DNA of 46,739 nucleotides from an uncultured Chromatiales bacterium. GTDB lineage: Bacteria > Pseudomonadota > Gammaproteobacteria > Steroidobacterales > BM003. Positions within the stretch are counted from its first letter, which is position 1. Each line of letters opens with the position of its first letter. This document shows, in pieces, positions 19,903 through 28,601 of the stretch. The notes below the pieces were generated by a model, which worked only from the letters and a program-made list of their open reading frames with translations, was not told the DNA's origin and ran no database searches. Location: assembly GCA_937128475.1 (NCBI GenBank), contig CAKZML010000188.1, forward strand, positions 1-46,739, given 5' to 3'. The translations under genes and the position numbers were made by a program.

Positions 19903-21900
19903 TCAGTCAGCCTCGAATTCCACCAGGTCCACGCCCTCGTCTATCAGGTCGCCTGCCGCGTAATTGATTCGGGTCACCGTGCCATCGGCAGGCGCAACAA
20001 TCGTGTGTTCCATTTTCATGGCTTCAAGGATGATCATGGGCGTGCCACGCTGCACCTTGTCGCCTTCGGATACCAGCACATCCAGGACCTTGCCAGGCAT
20101 GGGTGAACGCAAGCTCCCCGGACCGGCTTCATCCTCGAGTCCAGCCTCCAGGGGATCATGCATCAGCAGCGCCTGGCGCTCGCCATCAAGCAGGACAACC
20201 AACTCCTTGTCATGCTGCACCACCCTCGCCCGAACCCGCAATCCGTCCAGGCTGGCAACCAGCATTCCATCCCGATTCAGCCGGGCTTCGCCGCGAACAC
20301 TGCCGCCAGGTAAATCCAGAAGGTAATGCTCACCGCGGTAGTGGGCCTTCACTGCCACCCGTTCCCCGCCGATTTCAAACTCCAGCACGGTGTAGCTGTC
20401 ATCATTCATGCGCCAACCGTCACCGCGTTGCCAGGGTGACCAGGGATCTTCCGAGGCCATGGCCTGGCTGGTGGTCAGCCGTTTTCGCTGCACCAGAAGG
20501 AACAAGCTTGCCAGCCCCAGTCCACGGTCAGGATCAGTATTCAAACTCGTGGTGAGTTCACTGCGATGGCGATCAATGAATCCGGTATCGACCTTGCCCT
20601 TGCGGAACCCGGGGTGGGCAATCACGCTGAACAAGAAATCCACGTTGGTGGTGACACCGACAATTTCTGTTTCGGACAAGGCCTGCAACATCCTGCGAAT
20701 GGCAGCATCCCGGTCATGATCCCAGACTATCAACTTGGCAATCATCGGATCGTAGTGCACGGAGATCACATCGCCCTCGCGAACTCCCGAGTCCACCCGT
20801 ACGTGTTTGCTCTCCCGAGGGAAGCGCAAATGCTTCAGGGCGCCGGTGGCCGGCAGGAAATCCCGCTCCGGGTCTTCGGCATAAATTCGGACTTCTATGG
20901 AGTGTCCGTTGATACCCAGGGCGTCCTGGGCCAGGGGCAGTAACTCACCCGAGGCAACCTGCAACTGCCACTGCACCAGGTCCTGGCCGGTGATGCATTC
21001 GGTAACCGGATGCTCCACCTGCAGGCGGGTATTCATTTCCATGAAATAGAATTCGTCATCAGCGGAGACAATGAACTCAACCGTTCCAGCGCCGGTGTAG
21101 CCAATAGCCTGGGCTGCCGCCACCGCGGCCTTACCCATTTGTTCGCGACGTGCCGGTTCCATGCCCGGACCCGGAGCCTCTTCCACCACTTTCTGGTGGC
21201 GACGCTGCAAGGAACAATCACGCTCAAACAGATGCACGCAGTTACCCTGGCCATCCGCAAAAACCTGGATTTCAATGTGCCGGGGCTGGAGCAGGTATTT
21301 TTCAATCAATACCCGGTCATCAGCGAATGACGCCATGGCCTCGCGTTTCGCGGCTGCCAGGCCGGTGGCAAATTCACCGGCGCTGTTCACCACTCGCATA
21401 CCCTTTCCGCCACCACCGGCAGAGGCCTTGATCAGGACTGGATAACCGATGGCATCAGCCTGCTGGGCCAGCAGGCCTGCATCCTGGTCCTCGCCGTGAT
21501 AACCGGGCACCAGGGGTACGCCGGCGGCTTCCATAATTCGCTTGGCCTCGCTCTTGGAACCCATAGCCTGGATGGCAGATACCGGGGGCCCGATAAACAC
21601 CAGGCCGGCATCCTTACAGGCACGGGCAAACTCGGCGTTCTCCGAAAGAAATCCATAACCGGGATGTATGGCCTGGGCGCCGGTGCGCCGGGCTGCATCC
21701 ACCAGCCGGTCCACTCGCAGGTAGGACTCCGCCGCAGATGCAGGTCCCAGCAGTACAGCTTCGTCAGCCAGGGCCACGTGACGCGCACTGGCATCGGCCT
21801 CCGAGTACACCGCTACTGTGGAAACACCCATGCGGCGCGCCGTGTGAATAATCCGGCAGGCAATTTCGCCACGGTTGGCAATTAAAATCTTATCGAACAT
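19903..21900 (-). CDS. liuD: Methylcrotonoyl-CoA carboxylase, biotin-carrying alpha subunit
   Basis: ATP-dependent carboxylation of biotin, then of 3-methylcrotonyl-CoA with the beta subunit, in leucine catabolism. 665 residues: biotin carboxylase N-terminal domain (FDKILIANRGEIACRI), ATP-grasp domain with the glycine loop ASAGGGGKGM, MEMNTRLQVEHPVTE active-site segment, C-terminal BC domain, a middle linker, and the biotinyl domain with Lys629 in EAMKMEH. Length and partner (liuB, 26 bp upstream) favour methylcrotonyl-CoA over propionyl- or acetyl-CoA carboxylase. Confidence 0.93.
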   Translation of the reverse strand: MFDKILIANRGEIACRIIHTARRMGVSTVAVYSEADASARHVALADEAVLLGPASAAESYLRVDRLVDAARRTGAQAIHPGYGFLSENAEFARACKDAGLVFIGPPVSAIQAMGSKSEAKRIMEAAGVPLVPGYHGEDQDAGLLAQQADAIGYPVLIKASAGGGGKGMRVVNSAGEFATGLAAAKREAMASFADDRVLIEKYLLQPRHIEIQVFADGQGNCVHLFERDCSLQRRHQKVVEEAPGPGMEPARREQMGKAAVAAAQAIGYTGAGTVEFIVSADDEFYFMEMNTRLQVEHPVTECITGQDLVQWQLQVASGELLPLAQDALGINGHSIEVRIYAEDPERDFLPATGALKHLRFPRESKHVRVDSGVREGDVISVHYDPMIAKLIVWDHDRDAAIRRMLQALSETEIVGVTTNVDFLFSVIAHPGFRKGKVDTGFIDRHRSELTTSLNTDPDRGLGLASLFLLVQRKRLTTSQAMASEDPWSPWQRGDGWRMNDDSYTVLEFEIGGERVAVKAHYRGEHYLLDLPGGSVRGEARLNRDGMLVASLDGLRVRARVVQHDKELVVLLDGERQALLMHDPLEAGLEDEAGPGSLRSPMPGKVLDVLVSEGDKVQRGTPMIILEAMKMEHTIVAPADGTVTRINYAAGDLIDEGVDLVEFEAD

Positions 21901-21926
21901 TTTCAGCTCCAGCCGACCCTTGGGCT

Positions 21927-23534
21927 CTACATCCTGAACACGCCGAAACGCGTGGATTTAATGGGCGCATTCAGCGCTGCGGAAATGGACAGGCCCAACA
22001 CGGTCCGGGTATCCGCCGGATCAATGATGCCGTCGTCCCACATCCGGGCACTGGCGTAATAGGGGTTACCCTGGGTTTCGTATTGATCCTGAACCGGTTG
22101 CTTGAACGCCTGCTCGTCCTCGGCGCTCCAGCTTTCACCCCGTGCTTCCATGTTGTCCCGCTTCACCTGGGCCAGGACATTGGCGGCCTGTTCACCACCC
22201 ATCACGGAAATCCTGGAATTCGGCCAACTCCACATCATTCGCGGACTGTATGCACGGCCACACATGCCGTAGTTTCCAGCACCAAAACTACCGCCAATAA
22301 TCACCGTGAACTTGGGGACGCTGGAACTGGCCACCGCGGTCACCATCTTGGCTCCGTCCTTGGCAATGCCCCCAGACTCATACTTTCGGCCCACCATAAA
22401 GCCAGTGATGTTCTGCAGGAAAACAAGGGGTATTCCCCGTTGACTGCACAACTCGATGAAGTGGGCGCCCTTGAGCGCAGACTCGGAAAACAGGATGCCG
22501 TTGTTGGCGACGATGCCCACCGGGTAGCCAAATATATGAGCGAATCCACAGACCAGTGTGTTGCCGTAAAGCTGTTTGAATTCATCGAATTCACTGCCGT
22601 CAACAATCCGGGAAATGATCTCTCTGACATCAAAGGGCTTGCGTGAATCACGCGGCACGATGCCGTAGATATCATCCACCGGATACAGGGGATCACGGCT
22701 TTCGCGCATGGCCAGTTGAGGCCGCTTGACCCGGTTGAGATTAGAAACGCAGCGACGGGCCATACCCAGTGCATGGGTGTCATTCTGCGCGTAGTAGTCG
22801 GTTACCCCGGAAGTGCGTGAATGCACATCGGCCCCGCCCAGGTCTTCGGCGCTGACCACCTCGCCGGTTGCCGCTTTCACCAGCGGCGGACCACCCAGGA
22901 AGATGGTTCCCTGGTTGCGTACGATGATGCTCTCGTCAGACATTGCCGGAACATAGGCGCCGCCTGCGGTACACGAACCCATCACCACGGCAATCTGGGG
23001 AATGCCCTCGGCAGACATGTTGGCCTGGTTGTAAAAAATGCGTCCGAAGTGATCCCGGTCCGGAAACACCTCGTCCTGCATGGGCAGAAATGCGCCGCCG
23101 GAGTCCACCAGGTAAATACAGGGAAGATTATTCTCCCGGGCAATTTCCTGGGCCCGCAAATGCTTCTTTACCGTGGCGGGATAATAGGTGCCACCTTTGA
23201 CCGTGGCGTCATTGGCCACCACCATGCATTCCTGGCCATCAATCCTGCCTATGCCGGTGATGATCCCCGCCGATGAAATTCCACCGCCATACATGTCGTA
23301 GGCGGCGAACTGGCCGATCTCAAGAAACGCAGAACCCATATCCAGCAGGGTGCGAATTCGATCCCGGGGCAGCAATTTACCCCTGGACAGATGCTTGTCC
23401 CTTGCACGTTCGCCACCACCGAGTTTTATCACCGCGGCCCGCTCGCGCAGTTCCCGGACCAGGGACTCCATCGCCTCGCGGTTCTCGGCAAACTCACCGG
23501 AACGCTTGTCGATACCTGATTTCAATACCGTCAT
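21927..23534 (-). CDS. liuB: Methylcrotonoyl-CoA carboxylase, carboxyltransferase beta subunit
   Basis: 535-residue crotonase-fold carboxyltransferase that moves CO2 from biotin on LiuD to 3-methylcrotonyl-CoA, forming 3-methylglutaconyl-CoA. The N-terminal half has [16 protein letters not shown] and [11 protein letters not shown]; the C-terminal half has [20 protein letters not shown] and [16 protein letters not shown], the acyl-CoA and oxyanion-hole segments typical of MCC beta. It lies between liuA (31 bp) and liuD (26 bp), clearly one operon. Confidence 0.95.
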
Positions 23535-23565: not shown

Positions 23566-24741
23566 CTAGATCGATTCCTGGAATAGTTCGCGTCCGATCA
23601 GCATCCGACGCACCTCGCTGGTGCCGGCACCAATTTCATAAAGCTTTGCATCGCGCAGCAGACGGCCTGCGGGATAATCATTGATGTATCCGTTTCCACC
23701 CAGGATCTGGATCGCATCCAGGGCCATCAGGGTCGCCTTCTCTGCCGAGTAAAGGATCACACCGGCGGCGTCCTTGCGAGCTGATTGACCACGATCACAC
23801 GCGGCTGCTACCGCATACACGTATGCCCTGCAGGCATTCATGGTGGTGTACATGTCCGCCAGCTTGCCCTGGATCAACTGGAACTGGCCGATAGATTTAT
23901 TGAACTGCTTGCGCTCGTGCACATACGGAACAACCAGGTCCATGCAAGCCTGCATGATTCCCAGGGGGCCACCCGAAAGCACCACCCTCTCGTAGTCCAG
24001 CCCACTCATCAGAACGCCGACGCCGTTATTCAGGGTCCCCAGGATGTTCGCCACAGGCACTTCACAATCCTCGAACACCAGTTCGCAGGTCTGGGATGAA
24101 CGCATGCCCAGCTTGTCGAGCTTCTGTGCGGTGGAGAAACCCTTGAACCCGCGCTCAATAATAAACGCCGTGATGCCACGGGAATTCGCCTCGGGGTCGG
24201 TCTTCGCATAGACCACCAGGGTCTCGGCTTCCGGGCCATTGGTGATCCACATCTTGGTGCCATTGAGAATGTAATGGTCACCCTTGAGTTCCGCCTTCAG
24301 ACGCATACTCACCACGTCAGAACCGGCTCCAGCCTCACTCATGGCCAGGGCTCCAACATGCTCACCCGAACACAATGCAGGAAGGTAGCGAGCCTTCTGG
24401 GCCGGCGTGCCGTGACGGGCAATCTGGTTAATACACAGATTCGAGTGCGCGCCGTAAGACAAGCCTACACCTGCCGAGGCACGGGAGATTTCTTCCATGG
24501 CCACCACATGCGCAAGGTAGCCCAATCCGGTGCCACCGAATTCCTCATCCACCGTCATACCCAGCAAACCCATGTCACCCAGTTTTCGCCACAGGTCCTG
24601 GGGAAAGCTGTTGCTCTCATCCATCTCGGTGGCCCGAGGTGCAATCTCGCCAGCGGAAAATTCATACACCGTCTGGCGCAACATTTCGATGGTTTCGCCC
24701 AGGCCGAAGTCCAGGGTTGGGTAGGCACTGTTGATACTCAT
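23566..24741 (-). CDS. liuA: Isovaleryl-CoA dehydrogenase
   Basis: FAD-dependent acyl-CoA dehydrogenase oxidising isovaleryl-CoA to 3-methylcrotonyl-CoA and passing electrons to ETF. 391 residues. Glu251 in [14 protein letters not shown] corresponds to the unusual catalytic Glu of isovaleryl-CoA dehydrogenases, which separates it from straight-chain enzymes. Other family stretches are [13 protein letters not shown] and the C-terminal [23 protein letters not shown] 24741 is preceded by AGAGGA; the longer open frame runs into liuR. First enzyme gene after the regulator. Confidence 0.95.
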
Positions 24742-24775: not shown

Positions 24776-25180
24776 TCAGGAATTATTGTCCGGTGAATTA
24801 TTCGATTTCGTGGCCATGTGCTGCTCGCACAAGGCCTCAATTTCGGCCATATTTTTCAGCGTGGCGTCGATGTCGTCCCGCTTGCTCAACAACACCTGGC
24901 GATGCTCACGAATCTTGTCCTGCAGGCGTTTTAGCTGGCGCAACTTGTTACCGGCGATGGGGTCGTACATCTCGATGATTTCACGACAATCATCCAGCGA
25001 AAAGCCCAGTCGTTTTCCGCGCAGGGCCAGCCGTAACCGGACCTTGTCTCGCTCGCCGTAGACTCTCACCGTTCCCTTGCGCTGGGGACTCAGTATGCCC
25101 TTGTCCTCGTAAAACCGCAGGGTACGAGTGGTGACATCAAACTCCTCGGCAAGTTCAGATATGCTGTAGGTTCGATTCAA
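24776..25180 (-). CDS. liuR: MerR-family regulator of leucine/isovalerate catabolism
   Basis: 134-residue MerR-type regulator: N-terminal winged helix-turn-helix ([20 protein letters not shown] and [12 protein letters not shown]) followed by a long coiled-coil dimerisation helix to about 120. LiuR-type members control liu operons and are thought to respond to pathway CoA-esters. No ATG fits; TTG 25180 gives [11 protein letters not shown] and has GGAG eight bases upstream, while TTG 25195 lacks a Shine-Dalgarno. First gene of liuRABD and divergent from aacS, with a MerR-type operator between them. Confidence 0.9.
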
Positions 25181-25202
25181 GGTTCGACTCCGCAAGGAAA
25201 AC

Positions 25203-25218
25203 CGGAGGCAAGCCTCCG
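25203..25218 (-). promoter_or_regulatory. CUUG-tetraloop hairpin in the liuR leader
   Basis: Read on the minus strand, CGGAGG-CTTG-CCTCCG is a perfect 6-bp stem closed by a CUUG tetraloop, followed by GGTTTTCCTT, 22 bases before the liuR TTG. It resembles a short attenuator or a translation-modulating hairpin. The T-run is interrupted, so termination would be partial at best. Confidence 0.35.
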
Positions 25219-25261
25219 TCGAGAAACAAAAACCCGGACTGGCATACAGGCCGGATTTGCA

Positions 25262-25291
25262 TTGACCTTTACGTTAACGTCAAGCTAGTAT
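25262..25291 (+). promoter_or_regulatory. aacS promoter with LiuR-type operator in the spacer
   Basis: TTGACC (25262-25267) and TAGTAT (25286-25291) are separated by 18 bases, and the spacer is almost filled by TTTACGTTAACGTCAA (25268-25283) with a perfect ACGTTAACGT core. An operator inside a slightly long spacer is the classic MerR-family design. The ACGTnnACGT core resembles the published LiuR operator type as I recall it. On the minus strand the same site offers TTGACG as a -35 for liuR, but the -10 is weak. Confidence 0.65.
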
Positions 25292-25347
25292 CGGTGTCAA
25301 TGCACTTTTTAAGTGGAACGGGTTTGTTTGTCCTGGAGACCTCAGAT

Positions 25348-27303
25348 ATGACCACCCCGCTATGGCAACCGGATGCCGGGCAACTGGAACAAACCAATAT
25401 GTCGGCATTCATCCGGCATGTAGAGAGCACCCATGATTTCCCGATAGGTGGCTTTGAAGAGCTGTATCACTGGTCGGTGAATCAATCCGAGGATTTCTGG
25501 AATAGCCTCTGGGACTTTACCGATGTGCTGGCGAGCAAGCGGGGCGACAGAATTCTTGAAAATCCCGAGGCCATGCCCGGGGCCCGCTGGTTCCCCGATG
25601 CCCGCCTGAATTTCGCCGAAAACCTGCTGCGCCATCGCGGCCCCGAGACCGCCCTGCGGTTTAACGGTGAAAGCCAGGTCCAGCGCAGCATGAGCCGGGA
25701 TGAGCTGTACACGCACGTCTCCCAGGTAGCCCAGGCAATGCGTGCACTGGGGGTTAAACCCGGCGACCGCATCGCTGCCTATCTTCCGAATATGCCAGAG
25801 GCAATCATCGCCATGCTGGCCAGCTCCAGCATCGGAGCGATCTTTTCATCCTGCTCACCAGACTTCGGCTTGCGCGGCGTTATTGATCGCTTCGGCCAGA
25901 TAGAACCCAAGGTGCTGTTCGTCGCCGATGGCTATTTTTACAACGGTAAGTGGTTCGACTCCCTGGCCGTGGCCCGGGAAATGCTGCAGCAATTACCCAG
26001 CGTTAAACAGGTCGTTGTCGCCCAGTACGCGGGCGAGGAAAACGGCAAGGCGCAGCAAATTCCCGGCGCCTTGAGTTGGCAGGAATTCACTGGTGACCAC
26101 ACGCCAAAAGAAATCGAATTCGAACAACTGCCCTTCGATCATCCGCTGTACATCATGTATTCCTCTGGCACGACAGGCGCGCCCAAGTGCATCGTCCACG
26201 GCGCTGGCGGCACCTTGCTGCAACATCTGAAAGAACATCGCCTGCACGCAAACATCAAACCAGGCGACAAGTTTTTCTACTTCACGACCTGTGGCTGGAT
26301 GATGTGGAACTGGTTGGTAACCGGACTGGCCAGCGGCGCCGAATTACTGCTTTACGATGGCTCTCCTTTCCATCCCGACGGCAACACCCTGTTCGACTAC
26401 GCCCAAAGTTCCCAGATGAACGTCTTCGGCACCTCGGCCAAGTTTATTGAAGCGCTCAACAAGGCCGGTCTTGCTCCAGCCCGAACCCACGACCTGGGCA
26501 GTCTTCGCACCATGCTCTCCACCGGCTCTCCCCTGGTACCCGAAGGCTTCGACTTCGTATACCAAAATATCAAGCAGGACCTGTGCCTGTCCTCCATCGC
26601 CGGCGGCACCGACATCATTTCCTGTTTCGCACTGGGCAACCCCAACCTGCCGGTGTGGCGAGGTGAACTGCAGTGCCGGGGCCTGGGCATGAAAGTCGAG
26701 GTATATAACGAGGACGGTCACCCGGTCACCGAACAACGTGGTGAGCTGGTTTGCAGTGCCCCCTTCCCTTCCATGCCGGTGGGGTTCTGGAACGACCCGG
26801 ATGGCAGCCGTTATCACGCGGCCTATTTCGAACACTTCCCGAATGTCTGGTACCACGGCGATTTCGTGGAACTGACACGCCACCATGGAATGGTTTTCTA
26901 CGGCCGTTCCGATGCCACATTAAACCCGGGGGGCGTGCGCATAGGCACGGCGGAGATCTATCGCCAGGTCGAGCAAATGGATGAGGTCCTGGAAAGCCTG
27001 GTTATCGGACAGGACTGGCAGGACGATGTCAGGGTCGTATTGTTTGTCCGCCTCAGAGATGGCGTTGAACTGGATGAGGCCCTGCAGAACAGCATTCGGC
27101 TGCGGATTCGCCAGAACACCACACCCCGGCACGTGCCGGCGAAAATCGTTGCCGTGGCGGATATCCCCCGCACCAAGAGCGGCAAGATTGTGGAACTGGC
27201 CGTACGCAACGTGGTGCACGGCCGTCCCATCAAGAATCGCGAGGCACTGGCAAACCCGGATGCCCTGGAGCTATACAAGAACCTGCCCGAGCTAGACAGC
27301 TAG
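25348..27303 (+). CDS. aacS: Acetoacetyl-CoA synthetase
   Basis: Acyl-adenylate-forming enzyme: acetoacetate + ATP + CoA to acetoacetyl-CoA, AMP and PPi. 651 residues from ATG 25348, which has GGAG nine bases upstream and gives MTTPLWQPD, the family N-terminus; upstream GTG 25294 and ATG 25300 are less likely. AMP-binding P-loop YSSGTTGAPK (271-280), FYFTTCGWMMWNW, SGGTD-like AGGTDIISCF, YGRSDATLNPGGVRIG, and the C-terminal catalytic Lys613 in RTKSGKIVE. It closes leucine catabolism, whose end product is acetoacetate, and also supports ketone-body or PHB recycling. Shares the intergenic operator with liuR. Confidence 0.95.
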   Translation: MTTPLWQPDAGQLEQTNMSAFIRHVESTHDFPIGGFEELYHWSVNQSEDFWNSLWDFTDVLASKRGDRILENPEAMPGARWFPDARLNFAENLLRHRGPETALRFNGESQVQRSMSRDELYTHVSQVAQAMRALGVKPGDRIAAYLPNMPEAIIAMLASSSIGAIFSSCSPDFGLRGVIDRFGQIEPKVLFVADGYFYNGKWFDSLAVAREMLQQLPSVKQVVVAQYAGEENGKAQQIPGALSWQEFTGDHTPKEIEFEQLPFDHPLYIMYSSGTTGAPKCIVHGAGGTLLQHLKEHRLHANIKPGDKFFYFTTCGWMMWNWLVTGLASGAELLLYDGSPFHPDGNTLFDYAQSSQMNVFGTSAKFIEALNKAGLAPARTHDLGSLRTMLSTGSPLVPEGFDFVYQNIKQDLCLSSIAGGTDIISCFALGNPNLPVWRGELQCRGLGMKVEVYNEDGHPVTEQRGELVCSAPFPSMPVGFWNDPDGSRYHAAYFEHFPNVWYHGDFVELTRHHGMVFYGRSDATLNPGGVRIGTAEIYRQVEQMDEVLESLVIGQDWQDDVRVVLFVRLRDGVELDEALQNSIRLRIRQNTTPRHVPAKIVAVADIPRTKSGKIVELAVRNVVHGRPIKNREALANPDALELYKNLPELDS

Positions 27304-27320: not shown

Positions 27321-28556
27321 CTAGCCGGCCACCGCCGCCAGGGATGCCAGCAGGCGATCGACTTCTTCTGCGGTGTTGTACATGGAGAAACCCGTGCGCA
27401 ACAAACCACCCTGGTCATCCAGGCCAAGGGTCGACACCACCTTGTGAGCGTAGAAATGCCCGTCCCAAACCAGGTGTCCGGACTTGGCCAACTCCGCTGC
27501 AAGTTTGTCAGCGGTGACCCCTTCCATAGTGATGGAGATCGTCGGGGATCGTTTCACCGACGAGAAGTCAGGTCCCCATGTTTTAACGCCAGGAATTGAG
27601 GCCAGCCCGTTCCAGTAACGCACGGCGACTTCCCTCTCGTAGGCGGCGATATCATTCTTGGCTGACTGGATGCGTGCCCGCAGGGTGTCGCCACTGCCCA
27701 GATCCGCCACGTATTCCACCGCAGCCGTGACACCTGCAATCGCTGCATGATTCAGGGTGCCGGTCTCTATACGCCAGGGCGCCGCTGCCTCGGCAGTGCA
27801 CAACCTGTCAGTTTCCAGTTCATCAAGGAGACCGGGCCGGGAATACAGGATGCCTACATGGGGGCCATAGAATTTATAGGCGGAACACAGCAGGAAATCA
27901 CACTCCAGGGCCTGCACGTCCAGCGGGAAATGAGGCGCGTAATGGACCGCATCCAGCACCAGCCAGGCACCCACTTTCCGGGACAGGCTGCGGGCCAGGG
28001 CAATCTCTTCCAGGCTGACCGTTCCCAGGGCATTGGAGGCCATACCCATAGCCACCACCCGGGTACGCTCGCTTATCTTGGCTGCCAGGTCGTCACGATC
28101 CAGGGTTCCACCGGCGGTCATCCGGACTTCCTTGACGATGATTCCGCGCTCGCGCAGGTTCAGCCAGGGACCGCGGTTTGCCTCGTGATCCAGCTCAGTG
28201 ATGACGATCTCGTCGCCGGGTGACATCTTGCGCACCAGGGCGTGGCTCAAGGCGAAATTCAAGGTAGTCATGTTGGCGCCGAAAGAGACCTGGCCTGCGG
28301 ACTCCGCACCCAGGAATGCCGCCATGGTTTCCCGTGCATGGTCCATGACCACGTCTGTCTCACTGGAAGTAATGAACGCGCCATGAGTATTGGCGTTGCA
28401 ACGACTGTAATAATCGCTGACCGCATCAATCACTCGCTGGGGAACCTGGGTACCACCGGGTCCATCCAGGTACGACAGGGGAATTCCGTTCAGTTCACGG
28501 GCCAGAGCGGGAAAATCGCCGCGGCAGGCCATGGCTTCCTTCGAGGTATACGACAT
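27321..28556 (-). CDS. Class V aminotransferase-fold protein (cysteine desulfurase-like, VC1184 type)
   Basis: 411-residue PLP enzyme of the SufS/NifS-like fold. The PLP Lys228 sits in CSAYKFYGPHVGILY, with Asp202 and His205 in LVLDAVHYAPH. In place of the catalytic Cys loop of SufS (HHCAQP) it has WDGHFYAHK, so it lacks the desulfurase nucleophile. This matches a group often named cysteine desulfurase-like (VC1184 subfamily) whose true reaction is unknown. ATG 28556 follows AAGGA; the longer frame has no support. Last gene of the nitroreductase-ggt-this string. Confidence 0.85.
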   Translation of the reverse strand: MSYTSKEAMACRGDFPALARELNGIPLSYLDGPGGTQVPQRVIDAVSDYYSRCNANTHGAFITSSETDVVMDHARETMAAFLGAESAGQVSFGANMTTLNFALSHALVRKMSPGDEIVITELDHEANRGPWLNLRERGIIVKEVRMTAGGTLDRDDLAAKISERTRVVAMGMASNALGTVSLEEIALARSLSRKVGAWLVLDAVHYAPHFPLDVQALECDFLLCSAYKFYGPHVGILYSRPGLLDELETDRLCTAEAAAPWRIETGTLNHAAIAGVTAAVEYVADLGSGDTLRARIQSAKNDIAAYEREVAVRYWNGLASIPGVKTWGPDFSSVKRSPTISITMEGVTADKLAAELAKSGHLVWDGHFYAHKVVSTLGLDDQGGLLRTGFSMYNTAEEVDRLLASLAAVAG

Positions 28557-28587
28557 GTTCAACAGTCCTTTTCGGGTTGTTTCACAA

Positions 28588-28601
28588 GGGGGCATTCCCC
28601 C
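28588..28601 (-). other. Small GC hairpin between ggt and the class V aminotransferase gene
   Basis: GGGGG (28588-28592) and CCCCC (28597-28601) form a 5-bp stem with a 4-base loop in the 117-bp gap; no useful T-run follows on minus. It could set relative expression of the two genes or be incidental. Confidence 0.2.

Follow-up and report, generated by a model that had tools for sequence, protein, structure and literature searches.

The window, by which we mean the whole stretch of 46,739 bases analyzed here, is contig 188 of an assembly (G000) that comprises 3,060,892 bases in 307 contigs and is 96% complete. It carries a run of leucine-degradation genes that share one direction with liuR, the gene for a MerR-family regulator. 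liuR adjoins these genes, as is characteristic of LiuR regulons, and the acetoacetate-CoA ligase gene aacS diverges from it:

19903-21900, minus strand: liuD, methylcrotonyl-CoA carboxylase biotin carboxylase subunit, including a BT domain (PF21139, 53.3 bits, cut-off 31)
21927-23534, minus strand: liuB, methylcrotonyl-CoA carboxylase carboxyltransferase subunit by context (Carboxyl_trans, 536.9 bits)
23566-24741, minus strand: ivd (liuA), acyl-CoA dehydrogenase, by context isovaleryl-CoA dehydrogenase
24776-25180, minus strand: liuR, MerR-family regulator (Pfam MerR_1, 63.9 bits, cut-off 21.6; MerR-DNA-bind, 39.8 bits, cut-off 25.4)
25348-27303, plus strand: aacS, acetoacetate-CoA ligase (TIGR01217, 966.5 bits, cut-off 520.9), with an ATG at 25348

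LiuR passes the curated cut-offs for MerR DNA-binding domains, and its closest solved structures by sequence are CueR, followed by MerR and others. The open reading frame listing starts liuR at 25195; a TTG at 25180 with a well-spaced GGAG is common to the three genomes of the genus and is the probable start. In those relatives' loci for which ivd is listed, the gene follows liuR in the same orientation. Acetoacetate and acetyl-CoA are the end products of the leucine pathway, according to excerpts of PMC9636800, and an HMGL-family protein encoded by a 302-aa frame on contig 245 of the same assembly is probably the acetoacetate-making HMG-CoA lyase. The gap between liuB and liuD is 26 nt (21900-21927), so there is no methylglutaconyl-CoA hydratase gene (liuC) between them. 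The frame at 27321-28595, convergent with aacS, is cysteine desulfurase-like and falls in the TIGR01976 group (410.3 bits, cut-off 352.35). A plasmid search returned one short match of 78%.

Promoters and palindrome between liuR and aacS

The first-pass annotation had placed a TTGACC-N18-TAGTAT promoter with a palindrome in its spacer upstream of aacS, and inspection of the intergenic region bore this out. The following elements were assigned:

25262-25267, plus strand: aacS promoter, -35 element TTGACC, from a consensus scan and kept in the genus
25268-25283, no strand: predicted LiuR operator core, the inverted repeat TTTACGTTAACGTCAA, assigned on comparative evidence and the sole site with 0-1 mismatch in the assembly
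25286-25291, plus strand: aacS promoter, -10 element TAGTAT, invariant in all three genus genomes; the spacer to the -35 element is 18 bp
25271-25300, minus strand: candidate liuR promoter, TTGACA (25300-25295), N18, TAACGT (25276-25271)

The inverted repeat lies inside the aacS spacer (25268-25285). Its dyad axis, between 25275 and 25276, falls 8 bp beyond the last base of the -35 element (25267) and 1 bp off the center of the spacer, and the repeat contains one asymmetric pair. Six bp outward of the operator core, the end of the -35 element and T25268 form a degenerate third half-site (ACCT, 25265-25268). In a sigma-70-like consensus scan the aacS promoter scored 9 of 12 consensus matches, with a mean of 0.2 in shuffles, and no second promoter of this type was found on either strand of 25150-25400. 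The candidate liuR promoter is interleaved with that of aacS, and both its hexamers are invariant in the three genus genomes; its weak -10 element (3/6) places it under the threshold of the scan, which thus did not report it. An alternative liuR promoter, TTGACG (25283-25278), N17, GCAAAT (25260-25255), is not conserved in the genus genome G032. On the minus strand, the liuR leader (25203-25254) contains two possible hairpins, the first of which is followed by a U-rich run (GUUUUUGUUU) and is terminator-like. The hairpin sequence is similar in G018 and not in G032; the folding z-score is -1.87, and 8 of 200 shuffles fold equally well.

ACGTNNACGT is present once in the whole window. Since ACGTTAACGT with up to one mismatch turns up in 39 of 100 shuffles, window statistics alone are insufficient, and the support for an operator is comparative.

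Conservation of the box and its occurrence in other genomes

The genome set comprised three genomes of the genus (the window's own, G018 and G032) and four of the family. The divergence of liuR and aacS, which had been proposed at the outset, was confirmed with the same site between the genes in 3/3 genus genomes, a small set whose member G018 is a near relative of the window (LiuR 91% identical). Alignment of these three genomes revealed that 29 of the 30 positions of 25262-25291 and all 16 positions of the palindrome are invariant, compared with 25/78 in the liuR-side flank, 21/43 in the aacS leader and 51/70 at the 5' end of the aacS coding sequence. The conserved stretch extends to 25304, with 40/44 positions kept from 25261, and includes the minus-strand TTGACA of the candidate liuR promoter.

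Relatives of LiuR came from two sources: the order, where 6 of 196 genomes (counting the window's own) have one at E <= 1e-20, and named genomes, which yielded at least 586 relatives, the best 80 of which were used. An exact copy of ACGTNNACGT stands within 250 nt upstream of liuR at 77 of the 86 loci. Among the other nine it is found with one mismatch in four, two in four and three in one, and removal of the three genus genomes leaves 74/83 exact. In the remainder of the 80 named loci, 874,742 nt in all, the core occurs 68 times, a background of 0.019 per 250 nt. The locus set is rich in Pseudomonas; once near-duplicates were removed, 58 sites remained (56 without the genus), with the consensus TTDACGTWAACGTMAA. 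Within the 56 non-redundant relatives, 33 have a third half-site six bp outward (upstream in 27, on the opposite side in 6), and in 22 of the third half-sites the sequence is exactly ACGT; the background is about 0.01 per position. A locus from a delta-proteobacterial MAG (L061) has four ACGTNNACGT cores upstream of liuR, and several further loci have two or three, forming half-site arrays that are mostly six bp apart. Because of its position, its exactness and its conservation with liuR across relatives, the palindrome at 25268-25283 is very probably a LiuR box, as the first-pass annotation had predicted. The locus resembles the LiuR regulon as it appears in excerpts of PMC3223726, PMC5343134 and PMC7238569: a MerR-family regulator gene adjoins the leucine-degradation genes and has a conserved palindromic box in its promoter. 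It differs from that regulon in that the divergent partner here is aacS.

A scan of the genome for similar sites, which had been suggested together with an extended regulon, did not yield further targets. The liuR-aacS site is the single exact match to TTKACGTNNACGTMAA in the 3.06-Mb assembly, and there is no one-mismatch match anywhere in this 96% complete sequence. With up to two mismatches there were 27 matches per strand versus 32 for the reversed pattern, which is chance level, and a three-mismatch pattern gave 18 matches genome-wide versus 25 for its reversed control, with no enrichment. A subset of the weak sites, 24 loci of this assembly, was surveyed together with four loci of G003 and G032. 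Within those 24 loci, 21 sites fall within reading frames of 120 aa or longer, and three fall outside (L004, L006 and L189); the reading-frame verdicts are void for L193 and L136 of G003. We propose no further LiuR targets in the assembly, the near matches being at control level and mostly inside reading frames. With no other site of 0-1 mismatch present, the box seems to form a switch with a single operator, and LiuR appears, as judged from predicted sites, to act at one place in this genome. The box was not found at several operons. A multi-operon box is usual, perhaps not defining, in excerpts of PMC5343134, where LiuR has on average over 10 target genes in each genome, as against the one good site here.

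Among the matches listed, G018, G032 and the family relative G003 have one exact match each, adjoining liuR, and further one-mismatch sites number one in G032 and three in G003. One of the three G003 sites, a second LiuR-like site with one mismatch, lies between liuR and ivd (C328:13752-13767, L018). No match to aacS was found in G003 at E <= 1e-100. The intergenic one-mismatch site of G032 (C430) was rejected as a leucine-pathway target, its neighbors being glycanase-like and TonB-receptor-like; both flanking genes match their families below the curated cut-offs.

aacS and LiuR boxes in other lineages

Thirty of the 80 named LiuR loci were chosen and their genomes searched for aacS, which is present in 24 of them in 25 copies. 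One copy (L232), in which the contig ends inside aacS and the upstream region is missing, was left out, so that 24 copies in 23 genomes were considered; a second, 42% copy in G587 (L233) may be no aacS. The exact core was absent from the 300 nt upstream of aacS in all 24 copies of these LiuR-bearing genomes. It was likewise absent from the 300 nt upstream in 29 non-genus loci of the class, taken as the best from 78 genomes that gave a match in a search of 369; the presence of LiuR is established for G404 alone among them, and two of these loci (L112 and L116) have a one-mismatch core. aacS is thus not a core LiuR target, and a predicted LiuR box of its own is uncommon at this gene.

Examination of 40 aacS loci with wider flanks revealed liuB (at least 50% identity) in nine, with the exact core in one of the nine, G404. 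There the order is box, ivd, liuB, liuD and aacS, followed by a thiolase-like frame, and the same genome has a 44% LiuR homologue with the core upstream. The core also occurs without liuB nearby in eight other loci of the 40, which we took as chance. A second arrangement is seen at L054/L227, where box, liuR, ivd, liuB, liuD and aacS lie on the same strand and the liuD stop and aacS start are one nt apart. L227 is one of the 24 copies without a box of its own, yet it stands behind liuD in a boxed run. Within the 80 named loci, aacS beside liuR was seen in L054, at the end of the stretch, a count that misses genes at or beyond the flank. The gene order suggests that the runs in G404 and L054/L227 are LiuR-boxed operons, each presumably a single transcript, and two other lineages apparently bring aacS under a LiuR box by gene order, independently of the genus. 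Sharing one operator between liuR and aacS is a lineage-specific arrangement; the switch is of a known type, and what is uncommon is the pair of genes it joins.

The LiuR regulon and 'ILV box' of proteobacteria were reportedly described by Kazakov et al. in 2009, and acetoacetate-activating genes are said to appear in LiuR regulons there or in RegPrecise. A shared liuR/aacS operator was not found in the literature searched, with the founding LiuR-regulon study outside that search, and none of the papers listed names LiuR together with aacS or acetoacetyl-CoA synthetase. Excerpts of papers that name both LiuR and acetoacetate draw no link between LiuR and acetoacetate activation, and the stems 'acetoacet' and 'aacS' are absent from the main texts of PMC5343134 and PMC3223726.

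Spacer geometry and mode of regulation

The first-pass annotation had called the site a textbook case of MerR-family geometry, a description that holds in part. MerR-family promoters have spacers of 19-20 bp (excerpts of PMC5045206, PMC8113463 and PMC1526738), and for 22-bp MerR sites a distance of 8 bp from axis to -35 element is given in a passage of PMC5045206. The aacS promoter shares the palindrome within the spacer and an axis in the MerR-type range of 7-8 bp from the -35 element, but its spacer of 18 bp falls short of 19-20 bp and is one bp from both 17 and 19.

Spacers were also counted in the 56 non-redundant relatives, by scoring -10 matches of at least 4/6 at each distance from two possible -35 half-sites, and the resulting statistics concern liuR promoters and not those of aacS. 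A spacer of 17 bp was found in 9/55 and 9/24 of the relatives' liuR promoters, versus 1.14 and 0.48 after shuffling of the downstream part. Under this strict rule, which leaves out Pseudomonas TAGCTT sites at 18 bp, spacers of 18 bp (2 and 0), 19 bp (0 and 1) and 20 bp (1 and 0) were near the shuffled means. A spacer of 23 bp from the outer half-site, the same place as 17 bp from the inner one, occurred three times versus 0.47. A laxer, 17-weighted scoring of all 58 sites gave 24 at 17 bp, 21 at 18, one each at 19 and 21, and 11 at 15-16 bp; as it favors 17 bp by design, we relied on the unweighted strict count. Enrichment at 17 bp and not at 19-20 bp, together with the naming of LiuR as a MerR-family repressor in an excerpt of PMC3223726, fits steric repression, and LiuR probably works by occlusion rather than by promoter twisting.

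Taken with the gene order, these observations make it probable, in our judgment, that 25262-25291 is a LiuR-controlled promoter-operator at which one site represses both aacS and liuR-ivd-liuB-liuD. A LiuR dimer would bind the inverted repeat at 25268-25283. As the repeat fills the aacS spacer and overlaps the candidate liuR promoter, one bound dimer could keep RNA polymerase off both promoters. Leucine breakdown would make an inducer that causes LiuR to let go or change shape, upon which aacS and liuR-ivd-liuB-liuD, the latter presumably transcribed as an operon, would be expressed jointly. Leucine carbon exiting as acetoacetate could then be converted to acetoacetyl-CoA by AacS. The earlier suggestion that one site could control leucine degradation and acetoacetate activation together is supported by this placement and makes clear pathway sense.

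The mer operator-promoter invites comparison, having, as outlined in part of PMC1526738, two divergent promoters side by side, a single site between them and a palindrome in the spacer. By analogy, LiuR could be a classical activator-repressor that stays on the aacS promoter and untwists its spacer with inducer. LiuR is a MerR-family protein, its palindrome lies between the -35 and -10 elements with the axis at the distance given for the 22-bp sites in the passage of PMC5045206, and the 18-bp spacer exceeds the 17-bp optimum. We nevertheless regard such activation, the foremost competing reading, as unlikely, given the 19 or 20 bp of the MerR-family promoters in the published excerpts, the relatives' preference for 17 bp at liuR, and the description of LiuR as a repressor in the PMC3223726 excerpt. 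The mer system differs further in its 19-bp spacer, activation by distortion and mercury inducer, as against 18 bp, catabolic genes and probable repression at the site described here. A MerR-type protein described as a repressor has a parallel in CvkR of CRISPR-associated transposons (PMC9938897); its target is unrelated, and the likeness lies in that description.

The absence of an own box at aacS in the LiuR-bearing genomes tested and in the class sample would also agree with an operator that serves liuR-ivd-liuB-liuD exclusively, aacS being a bystander with its promoter elsewhere. Against this stand the aacS -35 and -10 hexamers flanking the core, invariant in three genomes, the fact that they form the sole promoter-like site the scan found in 25150-25400, and the position of aacS in apparent LiuR-boxed operons of two other lineages; we consider it quite improbable that aacS is unconnected to the site. 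That the palindrome arose by chance or belongs to another regulator is scarcely credible: one-mismatch copies of the core 10-mer are not unusual, but position, exactness and conservation with liuR speak strongly against such an origin.

Beyond dual repression at this locus, we tentatively suggest a broader scheme, which we hold to be conceivable and still rather doubtful. The LiuR group may have abandoned activation by distortion and may bind 6-bp-phased arrays of ACGT half-sites over promoters of 17-18 bp; in this genus, one such array would hold the interleaved, opposite aacS and liuR promoters, so that polymerase choice and repression would both be set at a single 40-bp site.

From the spacing result, the mer promoter appears to be the wrong template for LiuR promoters, a point that bears on any MerR-family site prediction that requires a 19-20 bp spacer. 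For the organism, dual repression by LiuR would place acetoacetate activation and the earlier steps of leucine breakdown under one switch, and more than one gene arrangement appears to place aacS under a LiuR box.
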